This document shows positions 46,689 to 64,000 of a DNA stretch of 64,000 nt, one piece after another (within the stretch, counting starts at the first letter, position 1; each line of letters starts with the position of its first letter). The position numbers and the translations under genes are program-made. The stretch is from assembly GCF_014396975.1 (NCBI RefSeq), contig NZ_CP060719.1, positions 1,708,001 to 1,772,000 on the forward strand. Direction: 5' to 3'. The notes under the pieces are model-generated. The model was not told where the DNA came from and ran no database searches. It saw only the letters and a program-made list of their open reading frames with translations. Origin of the DNA: Thermomonas carbonis. GTDB taxonomy: Bacteria > Pseudomonadota > Gammaproteobacteria > Xanthomonadales > Xanthomonadaceae.

Positions 46689-47552
46689 TCAAGCCAATCC
46701 CGCGATGCGCATGTACCAGCCGACCAGATCGTTGCCCCACATGAAGCTGATCCAGCCGGCGATCGCCAGATACGGGCCGAACGGGATCGGAGTGGCCTTG
46801 TCGCGGCCCTTGGCGGCAAGCCAGATCGAGCCGACCAGGGCACCGACCAGCGAAGAAATCAGGATCGTGGGCAGCACCCCGGCCAGTCCGCACCACGCGC
46901 CCAGCGCCGCGAGCAGCTTGAAGTCGCCGTGGCCCATCCCTTCCTTGCCGGTCAGCTGCTTGAACACCCAGTACACCGACCACAGGCTGACATAGCCAGC
47001 CATCGCCCCCAGCAGCGCGGCCTTCTGGCCGATGTAGAGGTTCTCCACCGACGCCACCAAGCCCAGCCACAGCAGCGGCAAGGTCAGTTGGTCGGGCAGG
47101 AGGCGGGTGCGGAAATCGATACCGGACAACGAGATCAGGAAGCCGGTGAGCAGCATCGCGCCGAACCCCTTCCAGCCGAAACCGAACCGCCAGACGCAGG
47201 CCACGAACAACAGCGCGGTCAGCAGTTCGACAAGCGGATACTGAACGGAGATCGGTGCCTTGCAGCCGCGGCATTTGCCGCCCTGAATCACCCAGCTGAC
47301 CAGCGGGATGTTTTCGTACCAGGACAGGTTGCGTTTGCAATGCGGGCAGTGCGAGCCCTCCACCACGATCCCCGGCGGCGGCGGATCATAGAGATCCGGC
47401 TCTTCCAGGATCTCGCGGGCGTCGCGCTTCCACTCCCATTCCAGCCGACGCGGGAGGCGCAGGATCACGACGTTGAGGAAGCTGCCGACCAGCAGGCCAA
47501 GCCCGGCCACGGCGGGAAAGCCGAGCCCGGGGTGTGCATCGAGGAATGCCAT
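46689..47552 (-). CDS. pilD: Prepilin peptidase/N-methyltransferase PilD
   Basis: 287 aa, about eight membrane helices. Zinc cysteines Cys69, Cys72, Cys94 and Cys97 in the cytoplasmic loop, and catalytic aspartates Asp146 (GIDFRTRLLPD) and Asp210 (GMGHGDFKLLAA). It cleaves and N-methylates type IV prepilins and also the type II pseudopilins encoded at 1-2311 (XpsO role), linking the two systems in this window. 31 bp upstream is the pilC stop. Confidence 0.96.
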   Translation of the reverse strand: MAFLDAHPGLGFPAVAGLGLLVGSFLNVVILRLPRRLEWEWKRDAREILEEPDLYDPPPPGIVVEGSHCPHCKRNLSWYENIPLVSWVIQGGKCRGCKAPISVQYPLVELLTALLFVACVWRFGFGWKGFGAMLLTGFLISLSGIDFRTRLLPDQLTLPLLWLGLVASVENLYIGQKAALLGAMAGYVSLWSVYWVFKQLTGKEGMGHGDFKLLAALGAWCGLAGVLPTILISSLVGALVGSIWLAAKGRDKATPIPFGPYLAIAGWISFMWGNDLVGWYMRIAGLA

Positions 47553-47583: not shown

Positions 47584-48852
47584 TTACATCACCGTCATGG
47601 CGAGCTTGAAGATCGGCAGGTACATCGCGATCACGATCGAGCCCACCAAGCCACCGATGATCACCATCACCATCGGCTCGATCAGGCTGGACAGCGCATC
47701 GACCGCATTGCTGACTTCTTCCTCGTAGAACTCGGCCACTTTCAGCAACATGTTGTCGAGCGCACCGGCTTCCTCGCCGATCGCGGTCATCTGCACCACC
47801 ATGTGCGGGAACAGGTTGACCTGCTTCATCGCCACGTTGACCGGGTAACCCACGGCCACGTCTTCCTTCATCCGCATCACCGCCTTGCTGTAGACCGTGT
47901 TGCCAGTGGCACCGGCCACGTTGTCCAGCGCTTCCACCAGCGGCACGCCGGCACGGAATGTCACCGCCAAGGTACGTGCGAAGCGTGCAATCGCCGAGTC
48001 ATTGAGCACCTTGCCGATGACGGGGAGCTTCAACAACAGTCGGTCGACAAGATGCTGCAGAGGCACCGAGCGCTTGTAGAAGAACATGAACGCGGCGAAG
48101 GCCCCTGCCGCAATGATGGCGATCAGCCACCACCATTTCACGAACTGATCCGATATGCCGAACACCAAAGTAGTGAAAGCCGGCAGATCCGCTCCGAAGC
48201 TGATGAAGGTCTCCTTGAAGGTCGGGACCACGAAGACCATGAGGACACCGCAGACGATGATCGCCACCGCGATCACGGCGGCCGGGTAGAACAAGGCCTT
48301 CTTGATCTTGCCCTTGATCGACTCGATATTTTCCTTGTAGACCGCGATGGTCTCCAACACTGTCTCCAGCACGCCGGAGGATTCGCCTGCGCGCACCAGG
48401 TTGCGATAGAGCTCGTCGAACTGCACCGGGTATTGGCTGAGCGCTTCGTAGATGGAGGCACCGCCCTCGATGTCGTTCCTCACGCCGAGAACCATCTTCT
48501 TCATCGCCGGGTTCTTGTTGCCGCTGCCGATGATTTCCAGCGCCATCACGATCGGCACGCCGGACTTCATCATCGTTGCCAGCTGGCGACTGAAGATGGC
48601 GATGTCACGCGGGCCGATCTTCTTGGTCGCGCCTCCGAAGAAGGGTTTCGGCTTGGCCTTGACCACGGTCGGGGTGATGCCCTGCTTGCGGAGCTCGGCG
48701 CGCAATAGGTTGGCGTTCTTCGCCGTCTGCTCGCCCTTCATGACCACGCCGCGCTTGTCGCGGCCCTGCCAGACGAATTCGACCATCGGGTTCAGGCGGC
48801 GGGACTCGGCTTGGGTCCGGGCCTTGCTGATGGCGGCTCTGCGTGCGGACAT
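47584..48852 (-). CDS. pilC: Type IV pilus inner-membrane platform protein PilC
   Basis: 422 aa. Two GspF-type domains (about 70-195 and 275-400) with three membrane helices; IFSRQLATMMKSGVPIV and FARTLAVTFRAGVPLVEAL are the repeated F-domain signatures. It couples the PilB motor to pilin assembly. The gap to pilB is only 10 bp, so no pilA lies between them as it does in many Xanthomonas genomes. Confidence 0.96.
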   Translation of the reverse strand: MSARRAAISKARTQAESRRLNPMVEFVWQGRDKRGVVMKGEQTAKNANLLRAELRKQGITPTVVKAKPKPFFGGATKKIGPRDIAIFSRQLATMMKSGVPIVMALEIIGSGNKNPAMKKMVLGVRNDIEGGASIYEALSQYPVQFDELYRNLVRAGESSGVLETVLETIAVYKENIESIKGKIKKALFYPAAVIAVAIIVCGVLMVFVVPTFKETFISFGADLPAFTTLVFGISDQFVKWWWLIAIIAAGAFAAFMFFYKRSVPLQHLVDRLLLKLPVIGKVLNDSAIARFARTLAVTFRAGVPLVEALDNVAGATGNTVYSKAVMRMKEDVAVGYPVNVAMKQVNLFPHMVVQMTAIGEEAGALDNMLLKVAEFYEEEVSNAVDALSSLIEPMVMVIIGGLVGSIVIAMYLPIFKLAMTVM

Positions 48853-48862
48853 GGCGATTACC

Positions 48863-50587
48863 TCAATCCTTGGTGACTCGGTTGATCTCGATGAGACTGG
48901 TGATCCCCTGTTTCACCTTGTCCAACGCTGAACCACGCAGGTCGCGGACTCCGCTGCGGAGCGACGCCTCGGTGATTTGCTGGACATTACCACCGGCCAG
49001 CACGATCTGCTGGATTTCGTCGTTCATGGGCATCACCTGGTACACGCCGGCACGGCCCTTGTAGCCCTCGGTGCAGTCCTCGCAGCCCACCGCCTCGTAG
49101 ACGGTGATGCCAGCATGCACTTCGTCCGCGGTGAAGCCCTCGGCCAACAGGGCATGCTCGGGCAGGTGCACCGCGCGCTTGCAGTCGTGCAGGCGACGCA
49201 GCAGGCGCTGGGCAATCACCAGGCTGACCGAACTGGTGATGTTGTAGGGCGCGATGCCCATGTTCATCAGGCGTGCGATGGTCTGCGGCGCGTCGTTGGT
49301 GTGCAGGGTGGACAACACCATGTGGCCGGTCTGTGCGGCTTTGACCGCGATCTCGGCGGTTTCGAGGTCGCGGATTTCGCCGACCATGATGATGTCGGGA
49401 TCCTGGCGCAGGAAACTGCGCAGTGCCGCGGCGAAGGTCATCCCGCGCTTGACGTTCTGCTGCACCTGGTTGACCCCGGGCAGGCGAATTTCCACCGGAT
49501 CCTCGACCGTGCTGATGTTGCGGGTCTCGTCGTTGAGGATGCCCAGCGCGGTATACAGACTGACGGTCTTGCCCGAGCCGGTCGGGCCGGTCACCAGCAC
49601 CATGCCGTAGGGCTTGTGGATGGCATCCATGAACAGTTTCTGCTGGATCGGCTCGTAACCCAGCTTGTCGATACCCAGCTTGGCGGCGCTGCCGTCCAGG
49701 ATGCGCAGCACGATCTTCTCGCCGAACAGGGTCGGCAGGGTGCTGACGCGGAAGTCGATCTGCTTGGTCTTGGACAGGTTGAGCTTGATGCGACCGTCCT
49801 GCGGAATGCGCTTCTCGGCGATATCCAGCTGCGACATGACCTTCAGGCGCGCGGCAATGCGCTGGTGCAGCTTGACCGGTGCCCGCTTGGCCAGTTTGAG
49901 GATGCCGTCGATGCGGAACCTGACCCGATAGTCGGTTTCGTAGGGCTCGAAGTGGATGTCGCTGGCGCCCTTGCGGATCGCATCGACCAGCGCCTTGTTG
50001 ATGAACTTGACCACGGGCGTGTCTTCGCCCTTGGCGTCCACGCCGGTGTCGTTGCTGAGGTCGTCATCGCCGCCGCTGACTTCCAGGCCTTCCAGGCCTT
50101 CGGAATCGGCCATCTCGTCGGCCATCGCCTCTGCGACTTCCAGCCACTGGTCCAGGCAGCGCTTGATGCGCTCGGCATCGACCAGGATCGGCTCCACCGC
50201 CAGGTTGGTGTGGAACTTCAGTTCGTCCAGCGCCTGGTGGTCGGTCGGGTCGCTGGTGCCCACGAACAGGCGTCCACCGCGTTTGAACAGCGGCAGGACC
50301 TGGTGCTTGCGCAGCAATTCTTCCTTGACCAGCGCAATCGCCGACTGCGACGGGTCGAGCGCCAGCGCATCCACCAGCGGCATGCCGAATTCGATGGAAT
50401 TGGCAGCCGCGATCGCCGCGGGCGTGACCAGCCTGCGCTCGGCAAGATAAGCCGCCAGCGGCTGCTTCTCTGCGGTGGCGGAATCCATCGCCTTGCGCGC
50501 AGCGGCCTCTTCCAGCGCGCCATCCAGCACCAGACGCCGGGCAATGCCGGTAATTCCCATCAAATTGGCGGACGTGACTGCGCTCAT
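48863..50587 (-). CDS. pilB: Type IV pilus assembly ATPase PilB
   Basis: 574 aa. An N-terminal MshEN-type domain (possible c-di-GMP binding, about 1-140), then the motor domain with Walker A GPTGSGKT at 334-341, the Asp box, DIIMVGEIRDLETAEIA and HTNDAPQTIARL. A zinc-ribbon part has GCEDC near the C-terminus, but the upstream half reads RRLHDC rather than a CxxC. It powers pilus extension. The next gene upstream (33 bp) belongs to the membrane-protein operon. Confidence 0.96.
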   Translation of the reverse strand: MSAVTSANLMGITGIARRLVLDGALEEAAARKAMDSATAEKQPLAAYLAERRLVTPAAIAAANSIEFGMPLVDALALDPSQSAIALVKEELLRKHQVLPLFKRGGRLFVGTSDPTDHQALDELKFHTNLAVEPILVDAERIKRCLDQWLEVAEAMADEMADSEGLEGLEVSGGDDDLSNDTGVDAKGEDTPVVKFINKALVDAIRKGASDIHFEPYETDYRVRFRIDGILKLAKRAPVKLHQRIAARLKVMSQLDIAEKRIPQDGRIKLNLSKTKQIDFRVSTLPTLFGEKIVLRILDGSAAKLGIDKLGYEPIQQKLFMDAIHKPYGMVLVTGPTGSGKTVSLYTALGILNDETRNISTVEDPVEIRLPGVNQVQQNVKRGMTFAAALRSFLRQDPDIIMVGEIRDLETAEIAVKAAQTGHMVLSTLHTNDAPQTIARLMNMGIAPYNITSSVSLVIAQRLLRRLHDCKRAVHLPEHALLAEGFTADEVHAGITVYEAVGCEDCTEGYKGRAGVYQVMPMNDEIQQIVLAGGNVQQITEASLRSGVRDLRGSALDKVKQGITSLIEINRVTKD

Positions 50588-50620: not shown

Positions 50621-53600
50621 TTACCGCAACCTATCCCCATCCGCGATCTCGGCGTCGTTGGTGGCCTCGAGCGGTGCTTCGGGGTTCGCTTGTGGCGATG
50701 CGGCGAGCACCAGCAGCAGGCGGATGGTTTCGCTGTCACGCAGTGACGGATGCAGTTTGTTCCAGTATTTGTTGTAGAGCAGGGGCACGTCGGCATTGCG
50801 GCCAGAGGCCATTGCGGCAAACAGCATCGCTCCGAACACATACTTGCTGGACACGGCGCTGCCGGCGACCAGTGCGGCATCGGGGCCGTCGAGCATCGTC
50901 CTGCCCACGTCGAGTACGCGCGCGTGGTCATTGCGCGAGGCGGCATCGACGAATGCCAGGGCCTGGAGCAGCAGCGGCGAAGTGGGCGGGCATTCGAGCC
51001 ACGCCGGCGACTGCCACAGGCCAACCTGCGCCGGGACATCCAGGAAGGCCACGGTGTCGCTCGCCAAGGCGAAGATCAGTTCGGCGTTGCGTCCGGGTGC
51101 GCCGTCCAGCCGGCAACTCATGCCCAACCCACGCAGCGCTTCAGCATAGTCGAGTTGCGGGTCATGGGCGTCGACGGCGGGTCGTGCATCACCTTCCACC
51201 AGCAAGCGCCTCAATTCGCGCGCGGCCTTCTGCTTGCTATCGCTCACGACCGGACGCCGCACGCCGGGTGGGGGCTGGTCGATGCTGCGTGGGCTGAAGC
51301 CGCCCAGGAACGGCACGACCGGCCATGGTGCACCGTGCCAAGGGTTGAGATCCGCCTTGGCTTTCATGAAGCGGGTCGCAGGCGCCTGGAGTTGCAGGAT
51401 CGGAAAGAAATCCGAATTCGCCTGGGACGGGTGCAGGTTGGCATAGGCCACCAGCGCGCGGCGATCCATGACGAAGGTGTCCTGGAGATCGCGGACATCA
51501 CGGAACCCGAGGCGCGCCAAGTCGTCGCGCAAGCCGGCATCGCCGAACAGGCGCGCGCCGAGGGCGGGGACTTTGCCCTTCGGGACAGCGATCAGTAGAA
51601 GATCCTCGCCGTTGGAGAGGTAGGCCTGGACATCGCTGAAGTGACCAAGCATCGCCCGCAGCACCGAACTGACCAAGGCGGGATTGATTTCGTACGTCTG
51701 CACCCATTGCAGGAAGATCCCGTCATCTTCCAGGTGCCTTGGCACGAAGGAATAGAACTCCTCACTGAAGAGCGTGGCGGTGCCGCCCATCCACGGGTTG
51801 GACGGCTCCGACACGATCAGGTCGTAGCGTCGCGGCGAGGAAGCAAAGAAGGCCTTGGCGTCATCGATCACGATATGCGAGCGCGGATCCTCGTAGGCGC
51901 GGCTGACCCGGTCGCCGAACAGTTTCGCGCCCTCGACCATCATCGGTTCGATTTCGATGGTGTCGACTTGCCCGATCCGCTCGCTGCCCAGCAAGGCGTG
52001 CGTGGTGAGGCCCGAACCGAAACCGATGACGCCCACGCGATCGAAGCGATCGCGCATCGACAGAGGCAATGCCGCGGCCATCACCATGGTGTATTCGTCG
52101 GCGATGATCTCGCCTTCGGGATGCATCGACAGGGCCGCGTCCACCTTGCCGTTGGTGGAGATCGCGCGCACCAGGCCCTTGCCCTCGCCGCGTTCGTACA
52201 GCGCCACCGAGGCGGTCTTGCCGTCGCGGTAGTAACGCATCCTGGTGTTGTCCAGGAACGTGCTGCCGTGTCGGTATACCGACGAGGCCAGCATCAGCGG
52301 GTCGAACTTGACCAGCCATAGCGACAGTGCAAGCGCGAAGACCGAAACAAGCGCGGCGAATACCGCCGGCCCCGGCCTGCGCCCGCTCCGTCCCGGGGCC
52401 ATGACGTGCAGGACGACCACGCCCAGCACCAGATCCACCGCCGCCGCCAGCCACAACGCCAGCTTCAGCCCAAGCATCGGCAGCAACAGGTGTACTGCGA
52501 CCAGCACGCCGACAATCGCACCCAGGGTATTAGTGGCATACACGCGACCGATCACCCGCTCGCCGCCCCCCTGGCGCAGGAGCTCCAAGGTGAGCAAGGG
52601 CAGTGTCATGCCCGCGAAGAACGCAGCGGGGAACATGACCAGCAGCGAGATCAGCCCGCTCGACAGGTTGTAGAGCGCATAACCCTCGCCAGTGCGGGCA
52701 ATCACCCGCAGCAGCCAGCCGACCCATTCGAAGGCATGGGCATAGACGAACATCGATGCCAACGCCGCCAACCCCATCAACACCTGCACCCAACCCGCAG
52801 TGGCGAGTGGCGACTGCAGCCGGTCAGCGCGGTGGCGCAGCCACAGCCCGCCGAAGGCGATGCCGGAAATGAAGGCCGCCAGCATCACTTCGAATGCATG
52901 GATGGTGGTCCCCAGTGCCAGCGAGAGCATCCGCACCCAGGTGATTTCGTAGACGAAGGAGGTCGCACCCGTCAGTGCCGCCACCGTGAGCACCAGGAGC
53001 GGCGTGGCGGTTCGCATCCGTGTCCGTGGTGCGGCGGCTGGCTTTGGCGTGGCTGCGACCGCACCTTCATGCTTGCTGATGGGGTAGATCGCGACTGCGA
53101 CCGCGATATTGAGCAAACCGGCGGTCATGATCGCGCCTGGCAAGCCCACTTTCGGCAGCAACAGATACGTGGCGGCGAGTGCGCCGATCGCTGCGCCGAT
53201 GCTGTTGGCGAAATACAGGCCGGCCAGTACCCGTCCCTCCGACGCCGGCTGCAAGCGCATGTATCCGGCACTCATCAGTGGGAACGTCGCCCCCAGCAGG
53301 ACGCATTGCGGCAGCACCAGCACGGTGGCCATTGTCCAGCGCAGGCCGTTGCCCGTGGCCGATTGCATGAGGCTCTCGTATGCCCACGCAGTGCCGGCGT
53401 GGTAGAGCGGATCGAACAGCAGGCCGAGAACGCCGATCACCAGTTCGATGACGGCATACGCCAGCAGCGGCCGGCGCAGCGACTCGGTACGCCGGCTCAC
53501 CAGCCAAGCACCCAGCGCCATTCCCCCCATGAACAGCATCAGTACCAACGACTGCGCATACGCCGAGTGCCCGAGGAACAGGCCCAAGTACTGGGTCCAG

Positions 53601-53686
53601 ATCGACTGGTAGATCAGTCCGGCGAAACCGGAGAGCGCGAAGATCCACAGCAGGGCATGGCCCAGGCGAGCCTTGTGTTCGCTCAT
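50621..53686 (-). CDS. Polytopic membrane protein fused to a spermidine-synthase-like domain
   Basis: 1021 aa from the ATG giving MSEHKARLGH, preceded by AAGGGGA. Residues 1-460 hold about 12-14 helices in two similar halves (GLIYQSIW/FVYEITW repeats), resembling the MFS-like part of known fused proteins. Residues ~480-680 have a SAM-methyltransferase/spermidine-synthase fold: VGVIGFGSGLTT, IDDAKAF at 607-613 and DLIVSEPSNPW at 622-632. The catalytic Asp of true aminopropyltransferases is replaced in SEPSNP. A C-terminal ~300-residue extension is unassigned. Its start overlaps the frame-restored stop of the upstream gene (ATGA). Confidence 0.85.
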   Translation of the reverse strand: MSEHKARLGHALLWIFALSGFAGLIYQSIWTQYLGLFLGHSAYAQSLVLMLFMGGMALGAWLVSRRTESLRRPLLAYAVIELVIGVLGLLFDPLYHAGTAWAYESLMQSATGNGLRWTMATVLVLPQCVLLGATFPLMSAGYMRLQPASEGRVLAGLYFANSIGAAIGALAATYLLLPKVGLPGAIMTAGLLNIAVAVAIYPISKHEGAVAATPKPAAAPRTRMRTATPLLVLTVAALTGATSFVYEITWVRMLSLALGTTIHAFEVMLAAFISGIAFGGLWLRHRADRLQSPLATAGWVQVLMGLAALASMFVYAHAFEWVGWLLRVIARTGEGYALYNLSSGLISLLVMFPAAFFAGMTLPLLTLELLRQGGGERVIGRVYATNTLGAIVGVLVAVHLLLPMLGLKLALWLAAAVDLVLGVVVLHVMAPGRSGRRPGPAVFAALVSVFALALSLWLVKFDPLMLASSVYRHGSTFLDNTRMRYYRDGKTASVALYERGEGKGLVRAISTNGKVDAALSMHPEGEIIADEYTMVMAAALPLSMRDRFDRVGVIGFGSGLTTHALLGSERIGQVDTIEIEPMMVEGAKLFGDRVSRAYEDPRSHIVIDDAKAFFASSPRRYDLIVSEPSNPWMGGTATLFSEEFYSFVPRHLEDDGIFLQWVQTYEINPALVSSVLRAMLGHFSDVQAYLSNGEDLLLIAVPKGKVPALGARLFGDAGLRDDLARLGFRDVRDLQDTFVMDRRALVAYANLHPSQANSDFFPILQLQAPATRFMKAKADLNPWHGAPWPVVPFLGGFSPRSIDQPPPGVRRPVVSDSKQKAARELRRLLVEGDARPAVDAHDPQLDYAEALRGLGMSCRLDGAPGRNAELIFALASDTVAFLDVPAQVGLWQSPAWLECPPTSPLLLQALAFVDAASRNDHARVLDVGRTMLDGPDAALVAGSAVSSKYVFGAMLFAAMASGRNADVPLLYNKYWNKLHPSLRDSETIRLLLVLAASPQANPEAPLEATNDAEIADGDRLR

Positions 53687-55601
53687 CGCACGATCCCCTT
53701 CCCGAGTTGCAGGTCCGCCATGACGTCGGTGCAACGATAAAGACGCCAGGTCACCTGGGCATCATGGGTCACCGGGTCCATGATCGTCCATGCACCTGCG
53801 GCGCGCTGTGGTTGCTCGTAGGGCAGGACGATGTAGTCGGGACGTTCGTCCGCTCCTGCTGCACAGGCCTGCTGCATCGCGGCATCACCGATGTGGCAGC
53901 GCGCGCGCTCCTCTGCTGCTCGCGCGCGATCCTTGCAAAATCGATCATCTTCCAGCAGGGATAGAGGCGATTGAGTCGTCGGCGGCCGTCCATTGCCATG
54001 TCGCGGTTGAAGACCTGTCCCGACAGCTGATGCGGGCTGAAGAAGCTCGCGCGCTGCAGGACCAGCCACGGCCCGGTCAGCGTCTCATAACCCCACAGCA
54101 CTTGTGCATCTTCCGGAATGCGCACGCCGAAGATGTCGGTACGGAAGGTCGCCCGCTCGAACGCGAGGACTTCCGGGGAGCGCAGGTCCCAGCGCACGGC
54201 GGATACCATCACGAGCGGGCACAGGACCAAGACAAACAGCAGGGTCCGTCCGCCCGTGGCCAATCGCTCCCAGAGCCGGACGCCGAGCAGCGGCAGGCCC
54301 AGGGCAAGCGGGGCGAAGACCAGCAGCCGGCGGTCGATGGCATAGAGATCCAGCCGGTAGTGCGCCATGCGGAACATGACGAACTCCGAATATGCATAGC
54401 TGGCGAACAGCAGCAGGATGCCGGCAGCCGACATCCATCCGACCAGTCGCTCCACCCGCGGCGGGCGTTCGGCCATGATGCGGGGCAGTGCGGGATAGAG
54501 CAGTGCCGGAGCGAGCCAGAGCCAGCCCCCCTGACCCCATGCGAGCGAGACCGCAAAGGCGAGCAGTAACGCCCGAGATCCGTTTTTCGCCTGCATGTCG
54601 CGATGGAGCAGGGCCGCAATCGCCGCCATCGCAAGCCAGTGTGCGAGCCAGTGGACGCGCCACAGCTGCAGACCGGCAGGCAGGATCAAGTGCAGGCCAT
54701 CGACGAGTAAAAGGGTTGAGCCCAGCCCCAGTCCAAGCCCCGCCAGCCCCGCCACGCACCACGCACCGAACGCGCCGCGCAAGGCATGCCAGCTGTAAGC
54801 CAGTACGAGCACATCCATCAACAGAAACCTGAAGTCGTCCGTCGTCCAGCGCGTGAGGAAGAGTTGTGGCGTGTTGTCGCGGAGGATGTAGAGCCAGTTT
54901 TCATCCGCCGCCTGCAGCAAACCGGCAAATGGCGGGACGCCGCCAACGGCTAGGCCCAGCAGCGGGATGCCAAACCAGGCCGCATGCAGCCACCGTCGAT
55001 CCTGCATCACCGCCCAAGGCCAGACGATCAACGCGGAGGCGATGGCTTGCAACGGGTGGAACAGCGCGGCCAGCGCCATGCATGCCGCTGCCAAGAACCA
55101 ACGCTGGCGCGCCAGCATGCCGATGCCGAGCAGGCATAGTCCTTCGGCAAGCGGGCGCGGGGTGAAGAACTGTTCGCTGTAGCCGAACATCCGGACCATG
55201 CCGTACATGGTCGGCAGGCTGAGCACGCCCAGCCAGGCCCAGTAGCGTTGTCCCCGCGGCAGCAATGCCGTGAGGCAGAACCAGCCGGCCGCCGCGAACA
55301 GGAGGTGCGCAGCAAGTGCGCCCCACATGAAGAGCGTCGCCGGATCAGTCCACGCCAGTGCTTGCGCGACCAAGCGTGGGAAGAGCGTGTATTGACTCTG
55401 TCCCCCGCCGTGGACGAACACCAGGTCGTTGCCGTAGATCTCCGGCCAGCGCCGAACCAGCGCTTGACCGAGGTACAGCACCGAATCGTGGTTGATGCCG
55501 GCGTAGCGTCGCAGCTGCAGGATCAGTATCAATCCAAGTGCAGCCGCGGCGATGGCGGTAAGGCGTGAGTGCTGCAAGCGCGGTGGAGCAGGCAGGCTCA
55601 T
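53683..55601 (-). CDS. Polytopic membrane protein, paralogue 2 (frameshifted near its end)
   Basis: About 638 aa if repaired; roughly twelve transmembrane helices. It shares with the upstream gene QRYWAWLGVL, GLQLWRVHWLAHWLAMAA and the YRLD..AIDRR stretch, so the two are tandem paralogues. An acidic first loop (GINHDSVLYLGQAL) recalls GT-C glycosyltransferases. After residue ~564 the frame turns to nonsense: a (GC)5 tract at 53899-53908 appears one unit too long. The alternative frame gives PDYIVLPYEQ and WRLYRCTDV, matching the paralogue's PDFLVLPFD and DWSLYSCSSI, and its TGA overlaps the next ATG. The open frame alone ends at 53769. Confidence 0.8.
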
Positions 55602-57523
55602 GGCGCGCGCGCGCTGCCTTGACCAGTCAAGACATCGGCTTGTTTCAAGGCTCGATTGATCGATGAGCACGAGTATAGTGACCAATCAGCCAATAGTTCG
55701 CGTCCGTTCGAGCTCATCCGACGCCACCGTCCCTCGGGTGGGAAGCTCAGGTCGAAGGGCAGCACCAGGAAATCGGGATGCAATACCTCTCCGGGACCGC
55801 AGGCGCGCGCAAGTGCAGGATCAGGAATGCTGCATCCCGCATACGTGCCGTCGCGGCTCGATAACTTGCAGCTTTCCACCGAATCAAGCAGCGGTCCTAT
55901 TCTGCCCAGCCGCCGCCTCGCCTCGCGGATGGTGCCGGGATTGAACGCGATGCCCGAGAGATGTTGTTGGTCGTAGTAGTCGGCCCGTCCAAGCACCAAC
56001 CATGTCGCCACCAAGCTCATGTCGTGCCAGTACACCTGCGCGTGTCTTGGCAGCGGCGTGGCGAACAGTTCGGGGTGGCCGGCCTGCTCGAGCACAAGTC
56101 GGCGTTGCGGGATCTGGATATCCCAGCGGAGGGCCGCAAGGGCCACCAGCGGTACCAGTCCGGCTACGGCGAGCAGAGCCCTCCCACGTCCTTCGATTCG
56201 CTGCCAAGCCATGGCTGCAGCAAACGGTAACCCGAAGGCGAGCAAGGGATACGCAAGGATGCGACGATCAATTGCGAAAGCGTCGAGCCGATAGTTGGCC
56301 AGCCTGAACGTAACCAGTTCCATAGCGATGTGTTGCACCAGCAACAGCGAAATCGCGATACCGATCAGGCTTGCCAGAACACGCAGTATGCGTGGCTGGA
56401 GTTGCGGCCCGACCCGTGGCCAAGCCCAGTAAAGCAAGGCAAACGGAACCCACGCCCAAGCAATTGCACCCCACGCCAGCAGGCCAGTGAGTGTCAGGAG
56501 CGCTGCCCGAAGGTGCGCGCGCTCGAGCAGGTCCCTTGAGATATGCAGGGCAAATGCGGCCATTGCGAGCCAGTGGGCAAGCCAGTGAACTCGCCACAAC
56601 TGCAGGCCGGTCGGCAGAATCAGGTGCAGCCCCTCCACTAACACCAGGCTGGCACCAACTCCGAGCAACAATCCGACGAGCGTCGCAAGGCAAAGTCGGC
56701 CGAAATCGTCCTGGCGGGCGTGCCAGGCGTAGGCCAGCAGCGCCGCATCGAACACCAGGTACTGATAGTCCAACCTTGGCCAGCCAGTCACGAAAAGCTG
56801 GCCGGTGATGCCCCTGAGCTCGACCCACCAACTTTGATCAACGCGCAGTAGCAGCCCGTCGAATGGGGCCAGCCCCATCAATGCGGCGCAACAAATCGGC
56901 AGGATCAGCCAGAGCGCATGGAGCCAGCGCCGATCCTGAAGCACCGCCCATGGCCAGAGAACGAGCGCCGCCGCGAGCGCCTGCAGCGGATGCAACATCC
57001 CTGCAAGTCCCAAGCAAGCAAGCGCACCCAAAATATTTCGACGCAAGCCCAAACCCAACGCCACCAACGCCAAGGCTTCGGCGAACGGCCGCGGAGTGAG
57101 AAAAGGTTCTGCGTAGCTGAAGATCACTGTGCGGCCGTACGAAGCAGGCAGACCCAACACGCCCAGCCACGCCCAGTAACGTTGCCCGCCGGGAAGCAGC
57201 GAAGACAGGCAAAACCAGCTGGCCCATGCAAAGGCGAGCAGGCCCGCAAGTCCGCCCCAGAAGAACAGCGCCGCCGGATCCAGCCAGCCCATCAGCTGGG
57301 CCAAGACCCAAGGGAAAAGCGTGTATTTGCCCTGGCTTCCGTGGGCGAAATACAGGTCGTGGTTGTAGATGTCCGGAGACAGGAGGCGCAGCGCTTCGCC
57401 CATGTAGAGGGTGGCGTCGTGGTCGATGCCCCAATAGCGATGAGTCAGCAGCAGCATGGCTAAACCCAAAAGTGCGGCCGCAAGTCCGGTTCGAGCATTT
57501 CCTGGTTTAGCGATGGGTAGCAT
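55598..57523 (-). CDS. Polytopic membrane protein, paralogue 1 (GT-C-like)
   Basis: 641 aa from the ATG giving MLPIAKPGN, chosen because it aligns with the start of paralogue 2; a GTG at 57562 would add 13 residues. About twelve helices, then a C-terminal ~120-residue soluble domain with several cysteines. The first periplasmic loop has GIDHDATLYMGEALRLL, with acidic residues in the place where GT-C transferases hold their catalytic Asp. No family is recognised with certainty. It heads a three-gene operon with ATGA overlaps, just upstream of pilB-pilC-pilD. Confidence 0.8.
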   Translation of the reverse strand: MLPIAKPGNARTGLAAALLGLAMLLLTHRYWGIDHDATLYMGEALRLLSPDIYNHDLYFAHGSQGKYTLFPWVLAQLMGWLDPAALFFWGGLAGLLAFAWASWFCLSSLLPGGQRYWAWLGVLGLPASYGRTVIFSYAEPFLTPRPFAEALALVALGLGLRRNILGALACLGLAGMLHPLQALAAALVLWPWAVLQDRRWLHALWLILPICCAALMGLAPFDGLLLRVDQSWWVELRGITGQLFVTGWPRLDYQYLVFDAALLAYAWHARQDDFGRLCLATLVGLLLGVGASLVLVEGLHLILPTGLQLWRVHWLAHWLAMAAFALHISRDLLERAHLRAALLTLTGLLAWGAIAWAWVPFALLYWAWPRVGPQLQPRILRVLASLIGIAISLLLVQHIAMELVTFRLANYRLDAFAIDRRILAYPLLAFGLPFAAAMAWQRIEGRGRALLAVAGLVPLVALAALRWDIQIPQRRLVLEQAGHPELFATPLPRHAQVYWHDMSLVATWLVLGRADYYDQQHLSGIAFNPGTIREARRRLGRIGPLLDSVESCKLSSRDGTYAGCSIPDPALARACGPGEVLHPDFLVLPFDLSFPPEGRWRRMSSNGRELLADWSLYSCSSINRALKQADVLTGQGSARAP

Positions 57524-57641: not shown

Positions 57642-58582
57642 ATGACTCGAATCGCAGTAGTACTTCCTGCTTACAACGAGGAAGAAACACTAGCAGCCAC
57701 CATCGCGGGATTTCACTCGGCTCTTCCGAGCGCAAGTATTTGGGTGGTCAACAATAGGTCTACGGATCGAACCGAGGCCATAGCCGCGGAGACTATTCGT
57801 AAGCTCAAGTGCTCGGGGGAGTAATCAACGAGGACCGCGGTGGTAAAGGCAATGCCGTGAGACGAGCTTTTATGGATGTTGACGCGGATGTGTACGTTCT
57901 CTCTGATGCTGATTTGACTTACCCGGCGATGCAGGTAGGCGAATTGCTTGCTCCGATTTTCGATGGTAGGGCCGAGATGGTGGTTGGAGATCGCCACAGC
58001 GGAGGGAACTACGCCATCGAAAACAAGCGAGCTCTCAATGGCTTCGGAAATCGCCTGGTGCGCGGGCTCGTTAACTTGCTTTTCGGCAGTAACCTTGCTG
58101 ACATCATGAGCGGCTATCGAGCTTTCAATCGTAAATTCGTCAAAAGTTATCCGATCTTGGTCGGCGGCTTTGAAATTGAAACGGATATGACACTTCACGC
58201 CTTGGACAAGCGCTTCCGCATCATGGAGGTTCCTGTCGATTATCGGGATCGGCCAGAGGGAAGTGTTTCGAAGCTCAACACGCTACGAGATGGGGCTCGT
58301 GTCCTCGCGACGATATTCAATATTCTTCGCCACTACCGGCCACTTCTATTCTTCGGCGGTATCGGCAGTGCTCTTTCTTTGCTCGGTTTGCTGGCAGGAA
58401 TTCCTGTTGTTTGGGAATGGTTGGAAACCGGCTTGATCTATCGAGTACCAATGGCGATTCTTGCGAGCGGCCTGGAAATCATTTCAGTGTTGCTGGTTGC
58501 CATTGGTCTCATCCTTGACTCGATCGCACACCAAAACAGACAGGACTATGAAAGAGATCTTTTGGCGCGAGGAAACCGCTAG
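57642..58582 (+). CDS. Glycosyltransferase family 2 (dolichol-phosphate-mannose-synthase-like), frameshifted
   Basis: About 313 aa if repaired. The first piece (57642-57824) has VVLPAYNEEETLAATI and NNRSTDRT, then hits a stop. The second (to 58582) carries on with GGKGNAVRRAF, VYVLSDADLTYPA (DXD) and MSGYRAFNRKF, plus two C-terminal membrane helices. A G5 run at 57815-57819 is one base short; a sixth G joins the frames as CSGGVINEDRGGKG. It probably moves a sugar to a polyprenyl-phosphate carrier, in keeping with the GtrA-like gene at 59412. Lower GC than the left part of the window. Confidence 0.85.
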
Positions 58583-58615: not shown

Positions 58616-59401
58616 TCAGCTCGAGCCTGCTGGGGTCGTGACTCTTTTGCGCGCGAAGGCATGGAGCTCGTGGTGGAATACGGCAGGGCTGAAACGCTCT
58701 ATCCACTCGCCAATTTGCCCAAGAAAGCGTCCGGCCTCGGTGAGGTGGCTAGGGCCGCGGTGTCTGTAGACAACTGCATCGAAGCCTCGTTCTTCCAACA
58801 TGCTTGCCAGTAGCCCACGCGTGTTGGCGCGATAAAGCGTCGGAAAGACATCCTCGGATTCATGGGGTTGTCGCAGGAGTTGTCGCACCTTGTAGTGCAA
58901 CCGATCCGGGATCATCAGCGCGGCCAAGCATGAGTAATGCCAAAGGTTCGGCGTGCGGATGCAGAGAAATCCCCCTGGCTTGATGACTCGACTTAGTTCG
59001 TCAAGGCTGTCGCGCGGGTTCGGGAGATGCTCGACTACCCACTCTGTGACAACCAAGTCCACCGATTCGCTTGCCAGTGGAAGCGGTGCGTCCATCGGTG
59101 AGATCAGCCGGAATTCGTCAATGTAAGGATTTTCCGCTGCATAGCTGTCCACATCGACACCGACTACGTGCTTCGCCTTCCTCGTGAATACCTGCACGTC
59201 GCGGGCGAATCCCCGATAAAGATCCTTGTGGAATCCTCGCCCGCATCCGAAATCACAGACGATCGAATCGCGTCGCAGTAGGGACTGCACTCGTGAATAG
59301 AAGGCAACTGCACCGTCTTGGTTCGTATATCCGCCAAATTCGTGCTCGGGGTAAAGAGCCTCGAAGGCACGCGATCTATCGAAATTCCTGTCGGTCATCA
59401 T
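58616..59401 (-). CDS. SAM-dependent methyltransferase (class I)
   Basis: 261 aa from the ATG-ATG pair at 59401; a longer frame to 59461 would overlap the GtrA gene. Motif I VCDFGCGRGFH (about 48-58), an acidic VVGVDVDSYA, and VTEWVVEHLPNP then ELSRVIKPGGFLCIRTPN, the usual Methyltransf_11-type order. Target unknown; within a glycan locus it may modify a sugar or lipid carrier. Convergent with the GT2 gene. Confidence 0.82.
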   Translation of the reverse strand: MMTDRNFDRSRAFEALYPEHEFGGYTNQDGAVAFYSRVQSLLRRDSIVCDFGCGRGFHKDLYRGFARDVQVFTRKAKHVVGVDVDSYAAENPYIDEFRLISPMDAPLPLASESVDLVVTEWVVEHLPNPRDSLDELSRVIKPGGFLCIRTPNLWHYSCLAALMIPDRLHYKVRQLLRQPHESEDVFPTLYRANTRGLLASMLEERGFDAVVYRHRGPSHLTEAGRFLGQIGEWIERFSPAVFHHELHAFARKRVTTPAGSS

Positions 59402-59411
59402 GCGTGTGCGC

Positions 59412-59825
59412 TCAGGTATCACGTAGCCAGGACAAGCCGAAGCTCCATCCTCGATGGACAAGGTAGATTATTGGTGCGGACAGAACACCAACACAGGCAA
59501 CAGCGAGCGAATAGTGCATATGCATGCTCGTTACAAGCCATGAGCATGCAATCATGCCAACCGCGAGTTGGGTGGCTGTTGTCGCGACATAGCGCAAGAA
59601 CTCCGGGGTGATCGCAGTTCCCGATTGGCGAAAGGTCCAGGACCTATTTAGCAAGAAGCCAACGATGGTGACGATGAGCGAGCTAAGCGCGAGGGAGACT
59701 AGGTAGTGAAAATTGAGATAGTGGGTCAAGATTACGACGATTGCGACGTTGAGCGTGATGCCGAGAAGCCCGGTCGCAATGTAACGACAAAACTCAGCGA
59801 TCCTCGCTCTCGTTGTCACCTGCAT
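59412..59825 (-). CDS. GtrA-family membrane protein
   Basis: 137 aa with four predicted helices. FCRYIATGLLGITLNVAI at the N-terminus and FLLNRSWTFR are GtrA hallmarks. GtrA-like proteins flip or bind polyprenyl-linked sugars for surface-glycan decoration, often with a DPM1-like GT2 (the gene at 57642). The start overlaps the upstream methyltransferase by 10 bp. Confidence 0.88.
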   Translation of the reverse strand: MQVTTRARIAEFCRYIATGLLGITLNVAIVVILTHYLNFHYLVSLALSSLIVTIVGFLLNRSWTFRQSGTAITPEFLRYVATTATQLAVGMIACSWLVTSMHMHYSLAVACVGVLSAPIIYLVHRGWSFGLSWLRDT

Positions 59826-60481
59826 CTCTCAGCCTCAACAGCGTAAACAGCGGCGTTGGTGTCCCGAATCGTGTTAGGGGTCAGGCAGTCTGCTGTCAAC
59901 GCAAGAACGTTGACAAGGAAGTTTGCCGGTGCGAGCAACACAGACGCAGGCCCCAGTAGTTTCTTCGCCGCGAGCATGGGGAACATCGCCAGCCACGCTG
60001 CAGGCCCGCACAGCGGGGTTATGCGAAGTATCACGAAGCCGGCTTGCTCAAGCGTTTCGCGTAAACCATCTTGGGTCCAACGCCAATAATCGGTAGGGTG
60101 TGGGTGATATGGCCACACGCCATGAGTAGACAGAAAAAGCCTCCCGTCTCGGGTCAATACACGCCGAGTTTCTTCAAGGTATCTGGGTACTTCCCTTACA
60201 TGCTCCAGTACCTGGAACGATACGACGAAATTCATGCTCTCATTAGTCAGCGGCAATGGCTGGTCGGCCTCTATACGCAGGTCCGGTGCGCCATCAATGT
60301 CTGCGCCGATATACCGTGCGCCTGCAGAAGTGAAAATTGGCCGGTACGGCATTGTGCCGCAGCCAAAATCCAGTACGACATGCTTGTCGAGTTCATTTGC
60401 GTGGGCGAACTTCCGGACGGAGTTCTCAAGGGCGGCGGCGACCAAGCCATCAGCCTGCAGCAGATACTTCAGCATATGCAT
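59816..60481 (-). CDS. SAM-dependent methyltransferase (class I)
   Basis: 221 aa. Motif I VLDFGCGTMPYRP at 36-48, IGADIDGAPDL, and FQVLEHVREVPRYLEETRRVL; FLSTHGVWPYHPHPTDYWRWT is typical of sugar or lipid methyltransferases in glycan clusters. A hydrophobic C-terminal stretch may sit at the membrane. The start lies 32 bp inside the end of the GT4 gene. Confidence 0.82.
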   Translation of the reverse strand: MHMLKYLLQADGLVAAALENSVRKFAHANELDKHVVLDFGCGTMPYRPIFTSAGARYIGADIDGAPDLRIEADQPLPLTNESMNFVVSFQVLEHVREVPRYLEETRRVLTRDGRLFLSTHGVWPYHPHPTDYWRWTQDGLRETLEQAGFVILRITPLCGPAAWLAMFPMLAAKKLLGPASVLLAPANFLVNVLALTADCLTPNTIRDTNAAVYAVEAERCR

Positions 60482-61583
60482 CCTTCAGGCTCGAAAAATT
60501 TGCATCCCAATCGAAATGTCGGAGCGCGGTCTGTCGGCAGCGTAACCCCATTTCGAGAACGAGCTTGGGGTCAGACAGAAGGGTGACGATGGCTTTGTTG
60601 AATTCTTCTGCTTGCCGAGGACAAAGTATCAAACCATCAGCCATTTCGTTGTTCGTGTAGGCTGCGTCGTCAGTCGTGATCACGGGCAGTTGGCTCGCCA
60701 TGGCTTCCTGCATTGCCAATGTAAAGATCTCGCCAACTGCGGGAAAGGCGAACACGTCGCAAGATCGGTAAAGTTCAGCCGTCTGGGCTTGGTCCAGTGG
60801 GCCGAGCCAGTGGACGCCTTCCATCAATCCATCTTCCGGGACTGGACCGGGTCCTGCAAACACAAGGTCGAAGCTAGGGTCCTTGGCGTTCAGCAGTATC
60901 TGGACGCCTTTCTTTTCGACCAGTCTGCCCACGAACAAAATTAATGGTCGATCTAGGGGCAGGCGGAACTGTGCGCGGATCGCGGCACGCTCGCCCTCTG
61001 CTGGTGGTCGGAATCTCCGTACGTCGATGCCATTGGTTAGCCATAGGATTTTCTTTTCGTTGATGCCGCGCGATAGGAGGAAGTCGCGAACATTGCGGTT
61101 GTACGCAACGATCTTCCTCGCGCTGCCGAAGATCAGCCTGCCCGCCGTCGCATAGACAACTCTTTGCACCCACATCACGAACCTGCTTGGGTGTTCCACT
61201 ATCGCTACATGCTGCGTCAGTAGCATGGGCTTGCGAGCGACCTTCGCTAGTGCAGCAGATATCCAAGAGCTCATGTAGAAAACATCATGGATATGCACTA
61301 CATCTGCAGATCGGATCTGCCGCCAAGCATCCACAACAAAGCGCGGGGAAAATATGGGGAAAGGAATGAAGAGAGTGTCCTCGATGACATGCCATGTGGG
61401 CACCCGCAACACTTCGATGCCTTCTTTCTCGGTTTCGCGCTGTTGCTTCGATTGCCAGAGAGACGAAATTATACGAACTTCATAGCCATTCCTGATTAGC
61501 CCTTGGGCTTGTTGCTGGACGACGATTTCCAAGCCTCCAACATGTGGAAGATAATGATGGGCCACGATCAGTGTGGTTGGCAC
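60450..61583 (-). CDS. Glycosyltransferase family 4
   Basis: 377 aa. GT-B fold: YLPHVGGLEIVVQQQAQGL at the N-terminus (acceptor side), LFVGRLVEKKGVQ at 217-228 and the GT4 E-x7-E motif with Glu285 and Glu293 (VGEIFTLAMQEAM). It transfers a sugar from a nucleotide donor with retention of configuration. Part of the minus-strand glycan operon. Confidence 0.92.
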   Translation of the reverse strand: MPTTLIVAHHYLPHVGGLEIVVQQQAQGLIRNGYEVRIISSLWQSKQQRETEKEGIEVLRVPTWHVIEDTLFIPFPIFSPRFVVDAWRQIRSADVVHIHDVFYMSSWISAALAKVARKPMLLTQHVAIVEHPSRFVMWVQRVVYATAGRLIFGSARKIVAYNRNVRDFLLSRGINEKKILWLTNGIDVRRFRPPAEGERAAIRAQFRLPLDRPLILFVGRLVEKKGVQILLNAKDPSFDLVFAGPGPVPEDGLMEGVHWLGPLDQAQTAELYRSCDVFAFPAVGEIFTLAMQEAMASQLPVITTDDAAYTNNEMADGLILCPRQAEEFNKAIVTLLSDPKLVLEMGLRCRQTALRHFDWDANFSSLKDAYAEVSAAG

Positions 61584-61592
61584 AAGGCTTTC

Positions 61593-62305
61593 TCAGGGGC
61601 TGTTAGTGCGAGCAATAACCAAGAGTGACGTGCCTCCAAGAATACGAGCCGAAAGCTCCTTGTTCAGCAGGGAGAGCAGTCTACGGGGTAGCCAAAACAA
61701 ATACTCACTGGTTGTGCGAGGTATATCTGTGAGGCGGCTGATGTATTGGAATTCTGTCACTGTGTAGCCGCAATCAGACAATGTCTCAAACGCTACGGCG
61801 GCTGTATAAAAGTGCAAATGTCCGTAATGCCTGCGTGTCCACCTTTGGTGATTGATCAAGATTCCGGCGACATGCATTTCTAGCGGGATATTGAATACGA
61901 CGACGGGGGCCAATTTTTTGAGGCTTCGCAAAAACGCGAATGGATCTTCGACGTGCTCAAAAACATCCACACATAGAAGCAGATCGAAGCTCTGCCCGGA
62001 CTTCGTAAGGTCCTCTAGGTGGAAGTTCAGGCGGGGTGATGCGCGCCTGTTGGCCAGATCGATTGCAGCCGGGGCGATATCGAAACCATCGAGCTGAACG
62101 TTGTCTGGAAACAGGTCATGAAGCTTGGCTAGTATCCCCCCGCGCCGCACCCGATCTCCGCAATCGACAACGGGGAGGGGAGATTGGATTGGTTCCATAG
62201 CTCATGAATGCATCTGGCTTTCCACGCGCTATCTTCTTCGCCCCAGGTCGGATTCGATGCAAGGTATTCGCCATCTGTGTAACGGTCATTTGCGGTTTTT
62301 TGCAT
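61593..62305 (-). CDS. SAM-dependent methyltransferase, frameshifted in motif I
   Basis: About 237 aa if repaired. The N-terminal piece from the ATG at 62305 reads MQKTANDRYTDGEYLASNP and reaches SIAEIGCGAGG, then stops. The other frame continues GILAKLHDLFPD and carries on to VDVFEHVEDPF and IARTNSP. Adding one base to the C6 run at 62136-62141 (G6 on the coding strand) joins them exactly inside the SAM-binding glycine loop. A longer-looking start on the second frame (62198) is only a fragment. Lies 10 bp upstream of the GT4 gene. Confidence 0.82.
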
Positions 62306-62386: not shown

Positions 62387-63988
62387 TTAGGGGCTTTTGC
62401 TCGCGGGGGGGGCTGCTTGCGAGGAATCCGGAATTCTCCAAGAAGAACCACGTTGATCTATTGTCACCAAAACCGCCTCACCCGCGATCTTTCGCATGAG
62501 CGCGCGATCAGCTTCAGTTCCCTCGCTCAACATGTTGATGGTGCGTTCTTGGTTTCGTGGATAGTTCCTGACCAGATCGACGCTGTAGAGGGCGGGTCGG
62601 TCCGTAGAGAAAAAGACGACGGATCGGCCATCCTCCGGCGTAGGTGGTTGCTGCGCTATTGAAGTGTTGATCGTTTGGCGGGTCGAGTACATGAATGCTG
62701 GCATTGCCAGAAGGCCGGCACATATCGCGGTTGCAAGAAAGCTTCGTTGAGGCGATGTGCTTATCCCACGCACGGCAAAGACCCCGGCGGCAACGGCGAC
62801 CAAGCCCCAAGCTGAGTGGACGTAGCGATAGCCCCAGCCATGCCCTTGGTCGTAAGGAAAGAAAAAGTAGAATCCGAAAGTGATGAGGAATCCCGCCAGC
62901 AGCAGACGCTGGATAGTCGTTTGTCGTCTCGCGATCAGCGCAAGGATGAGGGTTCCTGGGGCGGCCCAGATGAGGGCTTTCCACGCGGCATACGAACGGA
63001 TAACGAGAAGTTCCAGGTTAGGAACGAAAAATATTCCCTGTAGCTTTTCCACCCATGAGGCGAAAAAGCCTGCATGCGTGGCGGTCACGCCAGAGAGGCG
63101 CAAGCCCATTGTGCTTGTCAACAGCGGCCAGCCGAGGCAAAGCAGCAATGTCAGTGGTAGGTATCCGGCTGCGAGAGGAACCAAGCGGCGGCGGCGCTCG
63201 GGATCGGCCAGCATCCAGATGAATACCGGGACTGCGAACAATGCATGAGGCACTGGGTTGTGCAATACGAGCGCGATGCTGCCGACTACGCCTGCAAGCA
63301 TTGCCTGGCGCCATCCCGGCCGAAGCAGCAGCCAGAGGAACAGCAAGTTGAGGGTAAGCAGTGCCGACATCGCGTAGTAGGACATCGCGTTGATGCTGTA
63401 CTGCGGGCAGGCCATTGCGACCAAGAACGCCCAACCAAATGCCTTGTCGGATCCACTTGCCTGCTTGGCCAGATCACCGATCAACCACAGGCCGATCGCA
63501 CCCATCAAGGGGTTGAGCAACCATTCTCCACCGAACAGGGCAAATGGCGTCATCAAAAGGGCCAAACCGGGCCAATAGGCGGAGGCTGCCTGTCCCGTGT
63601 CATGGTTAACAAGGATGAAAACTCCTTGGAAGCCAGGGACCACCATTCGATCCATCAGTTCAGGAGGGTAGGTCGCCGTGAGGGCCCCGCTTGCAAAAAT
63701 ACGCGCTTGGAGCAATGGGGCGTATTCGTCCATTGCCAGCGGAAAACCTTGATACACGACGCGCGAAGCAATCGCCAATATGGAGAATGCGGCAATGCAA
63801 GCGGTTATCGGACGATTGGTGATCGAGTCGGCCAGTTGTTCGATGAATCGGTGCAGTGGGCGTAATGCGAATGCCAGCAGCAGCGCCCCAAGCATCGCAA
63901 GTGAATTCGTGAAGTCGTTGTAGAACAGCAGTCGGTAATAAATCTGGTAGTCGAACTCCCCGAGACCCGGCACGCGCCCGGAATACAT
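62387..63988 (-). CDS. Polytopic membrane protein, GT-C glycosyltransferase-like (may extend past the window)
   Basis: 533 aa from the ATG at 63988; the frame remains open to the window edge (APLAMYSG), so the true start may lie outside. About eleven helices. After the second helix comes PLAMDEYAPLLQARIFASG, acidic residues in the first large loop as in GT-C transferases. A soluble C-terminal tail (about 460-533) has no recognised domain. It may add a sugar to a lipid-linked glycan at the outer face of the inner membrane. Confidence 0.75.
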   Translation of the reverse strand: MYSGRVPGLGEFDYQIYYRLLFYNDFTNSLAMLGALLLAFALRPLHRFIEQLADSITNRPITACIAAFSILAIASRVVYQGFPLAMDEYAPLLQARIFASGALTATYPPELMDRMVVPGFQGVFILVNHDTGQAASAYWPGLALLMTPFALFGGEWLLNPLMGAIGLWLIGDLAKQASGSDKAFGWAFLVAMACPQYSINAMSYYAMSALLTLNLLFLWLLLRPGWRQAMLAGVVGSIALVLHNPVPHALFAVPVFIWMLADPERRRRLVPLAAGYLPLTLLLCLGWPLLTSTMGLRLSGVTATHAGFFASWVEKLQGIFFVPNLELLVIRSYAAWKALIWAAPGTLILALIARRQTTIQRLLLAGFLITFGFYFFFPYDQGHGWGYRYVHSAWGLVAVAAGVFAVRGISTSPQRSFLATAICAGLLAMPAFMYSTRQTINTSIAQQPPTPEDGRSVVFFSTDRPALYSVDLVRNYPRNQERTINMLSEGTEADRALMRKIAGEAVLVTIDQRGSSWRIPDSSQAAPPASKSP

Positions 63989-64000
63989 GGCGAGTGGTGC

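Follow-up and report, generated by a model that had tools for sequence, protein, structure and literature searches.

In Pseudomonas aeruginosa group IV, the GT-C enzyme TfpW is encoded immediately downstream of pilA and is described as putting D-arabinofuranose (D-Araf) on the pilin (PMC11841053, PMC11626772). TfpO, TfpM and PglS are reported to be linked to their substrate gene, and TfpO/PilO, TfpM, PglS and PglL to contain an O-antigen-ligase-related domain (PMC12645811). A pilin-linked accessory protein without glycosylation activity, TfpY, has also been proposed (PMC11841053). Here we analysed a 64,000-nt stretch (the window) of the 3.46-Mb, single-contig genome of Thermomonas carbonis, in which three minus-strand genes, P1, P2 and SPD, follow in succession with pilB-pilC-pilD directly downstream. 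We propose that P1 and P2, a tandem pair of GT-C-like membrane proteins, probably belong to a pilin glycosylation cassette with an integral-membrane GT-C transferase whose target is the major type IV pilin. The initial annotation of this stretch had already placed the three consecutive genes directly upstream of pilB-pilC-pilD and joined them by ATGA overlaps; both points are borne out, since the overlaps can be read as GCCATGAGC at the P1/P2 junction (55598-55601) and as GCGATGAGC at the P2/SPD junction (53683-53686).

The gene neighbourhood of the P1 family carries most of the argument. A scan with the family profile, taking one genome per species, gave 30 loci, mostly in gamma- and betaproteobacteria and one in Desulfurella (two of them, L019 and L033, lie on one contig). 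With pilin genes recognised by the motif GFTLIELM, a pilin gene was found just upstream of the family gene in 20 of the 30. In 17 loci it shares the strand of the match and ends 82-307 bp before it, in L018 and L038 it precedes another copy of the family gene, and in L022 it appeared once length limits were dropped. Five Thermomonas-type loci (L016, L017, L019, L021 and L023) have a paralogue pair directly before pilB; L041 has a divergent pilin-like gene near the family gene, L034 has no pilin gene near it, and in L020, L036 and L045 the family gene lies near a contig end. In 22 of the 30 loci, gtrA and a gene for a flavoenzyme resembling UDP-galactopyranose mutase (UGM) come after the family gene. 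The usual order of the cassette is pilA - GT-C - gtrA - UGM-like flavoenzyme, and its distribution is patchy; Lysobacter xinjiangensis KCTC 22558 (L027) and Curvibacter gracilis ATCC BAA-807 (L029) are examples of this order. This neighbourhood supports the role in pilin modification suggested in the initial annotation. A position directly downstream of pilA characterises the family and not the window's own copies: the genome has two exact matches to the pilin motif, both on the strand of P1, and its pilA genes are 9-10 kb upstream of that gene, outside the window. Ser/Thr content is 0.242 (29 sequences) and 0.239 (25) in cassette-linked pilins versus 0.197 (12) in pilins without a cassette, a weak difference, uncorrected for kinship, that we do not use as proof. 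In Desulfurella acetivorans (L041, 7971-11791), the GT-C gene (two separate tblastn matches), gtrA and the UGM-like gene stand together, ~650 bp from the divergent pilin-like gene; judging by this locus, the cassette seems to cross phyla.

The structure model of P1 is confident (pLDDT 92.5) and shows a GT-C fold, its best 42 structural matches all being GT-C-fold proteins. The GT-C nature assigned to the paralogues at the outset is thereby supported, and so is the acidic first loop: D36 and D56 are invariant in the P1-family alignment (A2) and are placed right after helix 10-27 of the model, in the first extracytoplasmic loop after the first transmembrane helix. P1 gave no match in Pfam (at E 1), NCBIfam, PHROGs or PADLOC, and its profile gave a single, insignificant match against PDB sequences. 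We retrieved 176 homologues at E 0.001 (7998 candidates scored); among the matches listed, all are named hypothetical protein and come from Thermomonas, Luteimonas and Stenotrophomonas acidaminiphila. A class-wide sample of 368 other genomes, with three candidates scored per genome, had the family in one genome. A P1 relative gave no tblastn match in phage sequences and one partial match in plasmid sequences. On plasmid pVF1 of Vitreoscilla filiformis (L133, 5917-7758), a remote P1 relative, annotated as hypothetical protein, lies inside a cobalamin cluster, and no pilin gene is annotated at that locus.

P1 and P2 share 48% identity across 544 aligned positions, and the long stretches said to be shared by them, WRVHWLAHWLAMAA and QRYWAWLGVL, are indeed present in both. 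In the tree, they fall into different groups, each of them supported; P0023 and P0066, which have neighbouring numbers in one Thermomonas record, divide between these two groups, which indicates that two distinct paralogues are kept together. Of the two 640-aa paralogues initially described, the tandem arrangement is real and P1 is intact at 641 aa, while P2 is frame-broken and open for 610 aa only. At 1919 nt, P2 is no multiple of three in length and so is not one frame. Its open part ends at 53769 and is no longer homologous from about residue 548 on; the homologous tail is found in a different frame, as far as a stop at 53683, and shares 32% identity with the last part of P1 (76 positions). 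Intact relatives of P2 do exist: P0068, of 639 aa, matches both pieces, with 88% identity over residues 1-548 and 78% over 87 positions of the tail. A second break, in the GT2 gene at ~57.8 kb, lies 4 kb from that in P2; both may reflect either true decay or a base-calling error. In Thermomonas sp. S9 (L088, 8745-12498; a canu contig, to judge by its title), both GT-C copies are interrupted, one being split into two frames and the other containing two internal stops.

The cassette flavoenzyme is present in exactly the five of 24 genus-mates that carry the P1 family. Its best PDB profile match is UGM, whose fold it shares over 444 residues, with protoporphyrinogen oxidase tying in the structural comparison. 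Ten UGM active-site positions are kept in an alignment read by hand. H63, R182, R327, Y453 and N457 of Aspergillus UGM, which we take to be catalytic and pyrophosphate residues, correspond to H55, R206, R365, Y471 and N473 in L027, and all 12 sequences of alignment A5 agree in these columns. In contrast, Q107, N163 and N207, presumably substrate-pocket residues of UGM, are replaced by K131, T187 and I237 in L027, and Y334 is changed too. The window genome's own flavoenzyme stays far below the curated UGM cut-off (TIGR00031, 25.6 bits versus 303.75), and its best NCBIfam family, PRK07208, is named hypothetical protein only. Because the ring-contraction residues are kept and the pocket presumed to bind the nucleotide is partly changed, the flavoenzyme may use a donor other than UDP-galactose, perhaps one already linked to polyprenyl.

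What the analysis shows is gene order, co-occurrence, the GT-C fold of the model, the invariant acids, and the relationship of the flavoenzyme to UGM with its kept catalytic residues; the enzymatic steps of the following scheme are all inferred, as are its acceptor and its sugar. The flavoenzyme would contract a pyranose sugar donor to the furanose, a polyprenyl-phosphate sugar would be formed in the cytoplasm, and GtrA would assist its passage across the inner membrane. P1, whose first periplasmic loop would hold the catalytic acid, would then transfer the sugar to Ser/Thr of the pilin before or during assembly; with the tandem paralogues of Thermomonas, one may start the glycan and the other extend it. 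A furanose donor for the pilin cassette is a tentative element of this scheme.

Such a working mode would resemble that described for TfpW. The gene position of most members and the fold class are alike, with possibly a furanose in both systems. The partners differ, being GtrA and the UGM-like flavoenzyme here and D-Araf pathway genes, which we presume to be of the DprE1/DprE2 type, in the TfpW system. With TfpO/PilO, TfpM, PglS and PglL, the proposed role of P1 shares the periplasmic transfer of a glycan to pilin or pilin-like proteins, but unlike these O-oligosaccharyltransferases, whose O-antigen-ligase-related domain is presumably PF04932, P1 has a GT-C-fold model and no Pfam family at E 1. 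The mycobacterial arabinofuranosyltransferases EmbB, AftA and AftD are among the closest folds of the P1 model; they make arabinan rather than a pilin glycan, and P1 has no significant sequence-profile match to solved structures.

A second pilA-linked membrane family (FDD) has ~610-690 aa, an FDD motif in the first loop and C-terminal TPR. Its loci (L062-L069, L071 and L075-L085) often hold tandem pairs, sometimes with an SPD gene, and FDD proteins also occur in nine of the 13 genomes of the fetched SPD loci. The members scanned gave no Pfam or NCBIfam match; the C-terminus matches solved TPR proteins, and a sequence motif suggests a possible GT-C nature. Comparison of the P1 and FDD profiles showed no homology (probability 1.6). 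In the genus, where cassette counts share ancestry, the FDD family is present in 14 of 24 genus-mates without any overlap with the P1 family, and it stands directly behind the pilin gene in all 11 genus loci fetched. Of the five genus-mates with neither family, G014 (L109) reads pilA-pilA-pilB and offers an empty slot for comparison. Since the two families never overlap, FDD lies behind the pilin and the slot is empty in G014, one pilA-pilB slot takes alternative cassettes. SPD otherwise accompanies the FDD type in this genus (G011, G017 and G020), and the window's locus combines the P1 type with SPD. The wider picture, a pilin-furanosylation system in scattered bacteria with a donor that is perhaps not UDP-galactose and with a cassette that alternates with the unrelated-looking FDD family in the Thermomonas slot, as though strains exchanged their pilus coats, is conceivable but doubtful.

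The third gene was rightly described at first as a membrane/spermidine-synthase-like fusion: SPD passes the cut-offs of NF037959 (fused MFS/spermidine synthase, MFS_SpdSyn; 91.1 bits, cut-off 40) and PF01564 (59.9 bits, cut-off 22.9), and its residues 535-692 align with solved spermidine synthases. The catalytic Asp motifs of spermidine synthases are GGGDG and DSSDP. In SPD, however, GFGSGL replaces GGGDGG and E-P-S-N-P replaces D-S-S-D-P (also D-S-T-E-P and D-G-S-D-P), and SEPSNPW is invariant in all 14 aligned SPD sequences. With its catalytic Asp positions altered in this way, SPD probably makes no spermidine, and aminopropyl transfer by it is unlikely. The window's three genes could still be thought to form one functional unit in which SPD modifies the pilin, or the glycan on it, with an aminopropyl group, given that ATGA overlaps join them and that 11 of the 13 SPD loci fetched within the order include a pilin gene, most at less than 1 kb and, in L064 and L073, at several kb. 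This proposal is quite improbable. Among 59 other related genomes, 16 have an SPD relative (the 13 loci fetched are from these), and the linkage of SPD to pilA fails outside the order, where the pilin motif occurred in none of 13 loci (8.3-16 kb; 15 places were sampled elsewhere in the class, two ~4-kb loci standing outside the motif count); one of these 13, L155, has a 37% pilB-like fragment. We therefore rejected a general pilA linkage of SPD. Nor does the trio recur: no other locus examined has all three genes, SPD being absent from the other P1-family loci examined and, at E 1e-30, from the whole genomes of the five P1-family genus-mates. For the trio, this is the outcome that the initial annotation had itself named as refuting, and the trio was rejected as a conserved unit. 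SPD would be an accessory of the window's locus alone.

There are two further readings. GtrA is part of serotype-converting systems, and the cassette might decorate another envelope glycan (lipopolysaccharide or capsule, cf. GtrA-GtrB-GtrC), the pilA-pilB interval being a mere insertion hot spot. The several glycosyltransferase and methyltransferase genes of the own locus fit this, as does the fact that the interval holds different cassettes in different genomes. We nevertheless consider it unlikely, because the family gene follows a pilin gene on the same strand in loci of several families, and 17 of the 20 pilin-linked loci have no close pilB in the stretch (only L018, L022 and L027 do) and therefore are not the Thermomonas-type interval; a hot spot alone leaves the constant pilin - GT-C - gtrA - flavoenzyme order unexplained. 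It is less probable still that P1 and P2 are non-catalytic pilin accessory proteins that aid pilus assembly and have a GT-C-like shape only. Such proteins are described, TfpY being the example, but TfpY has 235 aa and TfpZ 245 aa (PMC11841053) as against 641 aa for P1, the first-loop acids are invariant, and a sugar-enzyme module travels with the P1-family gene.

Glycosylation of the pilin thus remains our preferred reading. If it holds, the family would provide a second GT-C pilin cassette, in which the transferase lacks any Pfam or NCBIfam match and the sugar-enzyme partner is conserved. In Pseudomonas, glycosylation of the pilin reportedly allows cells to escape phages that bind the pilus (PMC11841053); the cassette would extend this theme to scattered members of the beta- and gammaproteobacteria and suggest a concrete sugar class. 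With two cassettes alternating at a single chromosomal site in the same genus, pilus-coat switching would become directly testable.

The features of the locus are collected in Table 1. The conserved partners, gtrA and the UGM-like flavoenzyme gene, and the pilA genes are past the edge of the window and so were out of sight of the initial annotation. Beyond the window (L048), the 571-aa membrane protein is preceded by the UGM-like flavoenzyme, GtrA, pilA2, pilA1, pilR and pilS, so that the own-genome order runs pilS, pilR, pilA1, pilA2, GtrA, flavoenzyme and 571-aa protein, then methyltransferases and glycosyltransferases with a second GtrA, then P1, P2 and SPD, and finally pilB, pilC, pilD and coaE (pil and coaE names as we presume them).

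Table 1. Features of the P1/P2 locus in window coordinates.
Feature	Position	Strand	Description
P1	55598..57523	-	641-aa GT-C-fold membrane protein, intact 1926-nt frame
P2	53683..55601	-	tandem paralogue of P1, frame-broken
SPD (third gene)	50621..53686	-	MFS-like membrane + spermidine-synthase-like fusion, 3066 nt, 1021 aa
pilB, type IV pilus ATPase	48863..50587	-	name presumed; anchor in locus comparisons
pilC	47584..48852	-	name presumed
pilD, prepilin peptidase	46689..47552	-	name presumed
GT2 glycosyltransferase, frame-broken ~57.8 kb	57642..58582	+	divergent from P1; PF00535 33.5 bits (57809-58582)
Methyltransferase	58616..59461	-	PF08241
GtrA-like protein, second copy	59412..59825	-	PF04138, 63.1 bits
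Methyltransferase	59816..60481	-	
Glycosyltransferase, group 1 / family 4 type	60450..61583	-	PF13692
Methyltransferase	61593..62198	-	
571-aa membrane protein, cut by window edge	62387..64000	-	

The 571-aa protein matches the putative glycosyltransferase family NF047440 weakly (40.1 bits versus a cut-off of 200). Two other Thermomonas loci, L086 and L088, have the own-locus arrangement without SPD and include copies of this protein that are 57% and 55% identical, respectively.

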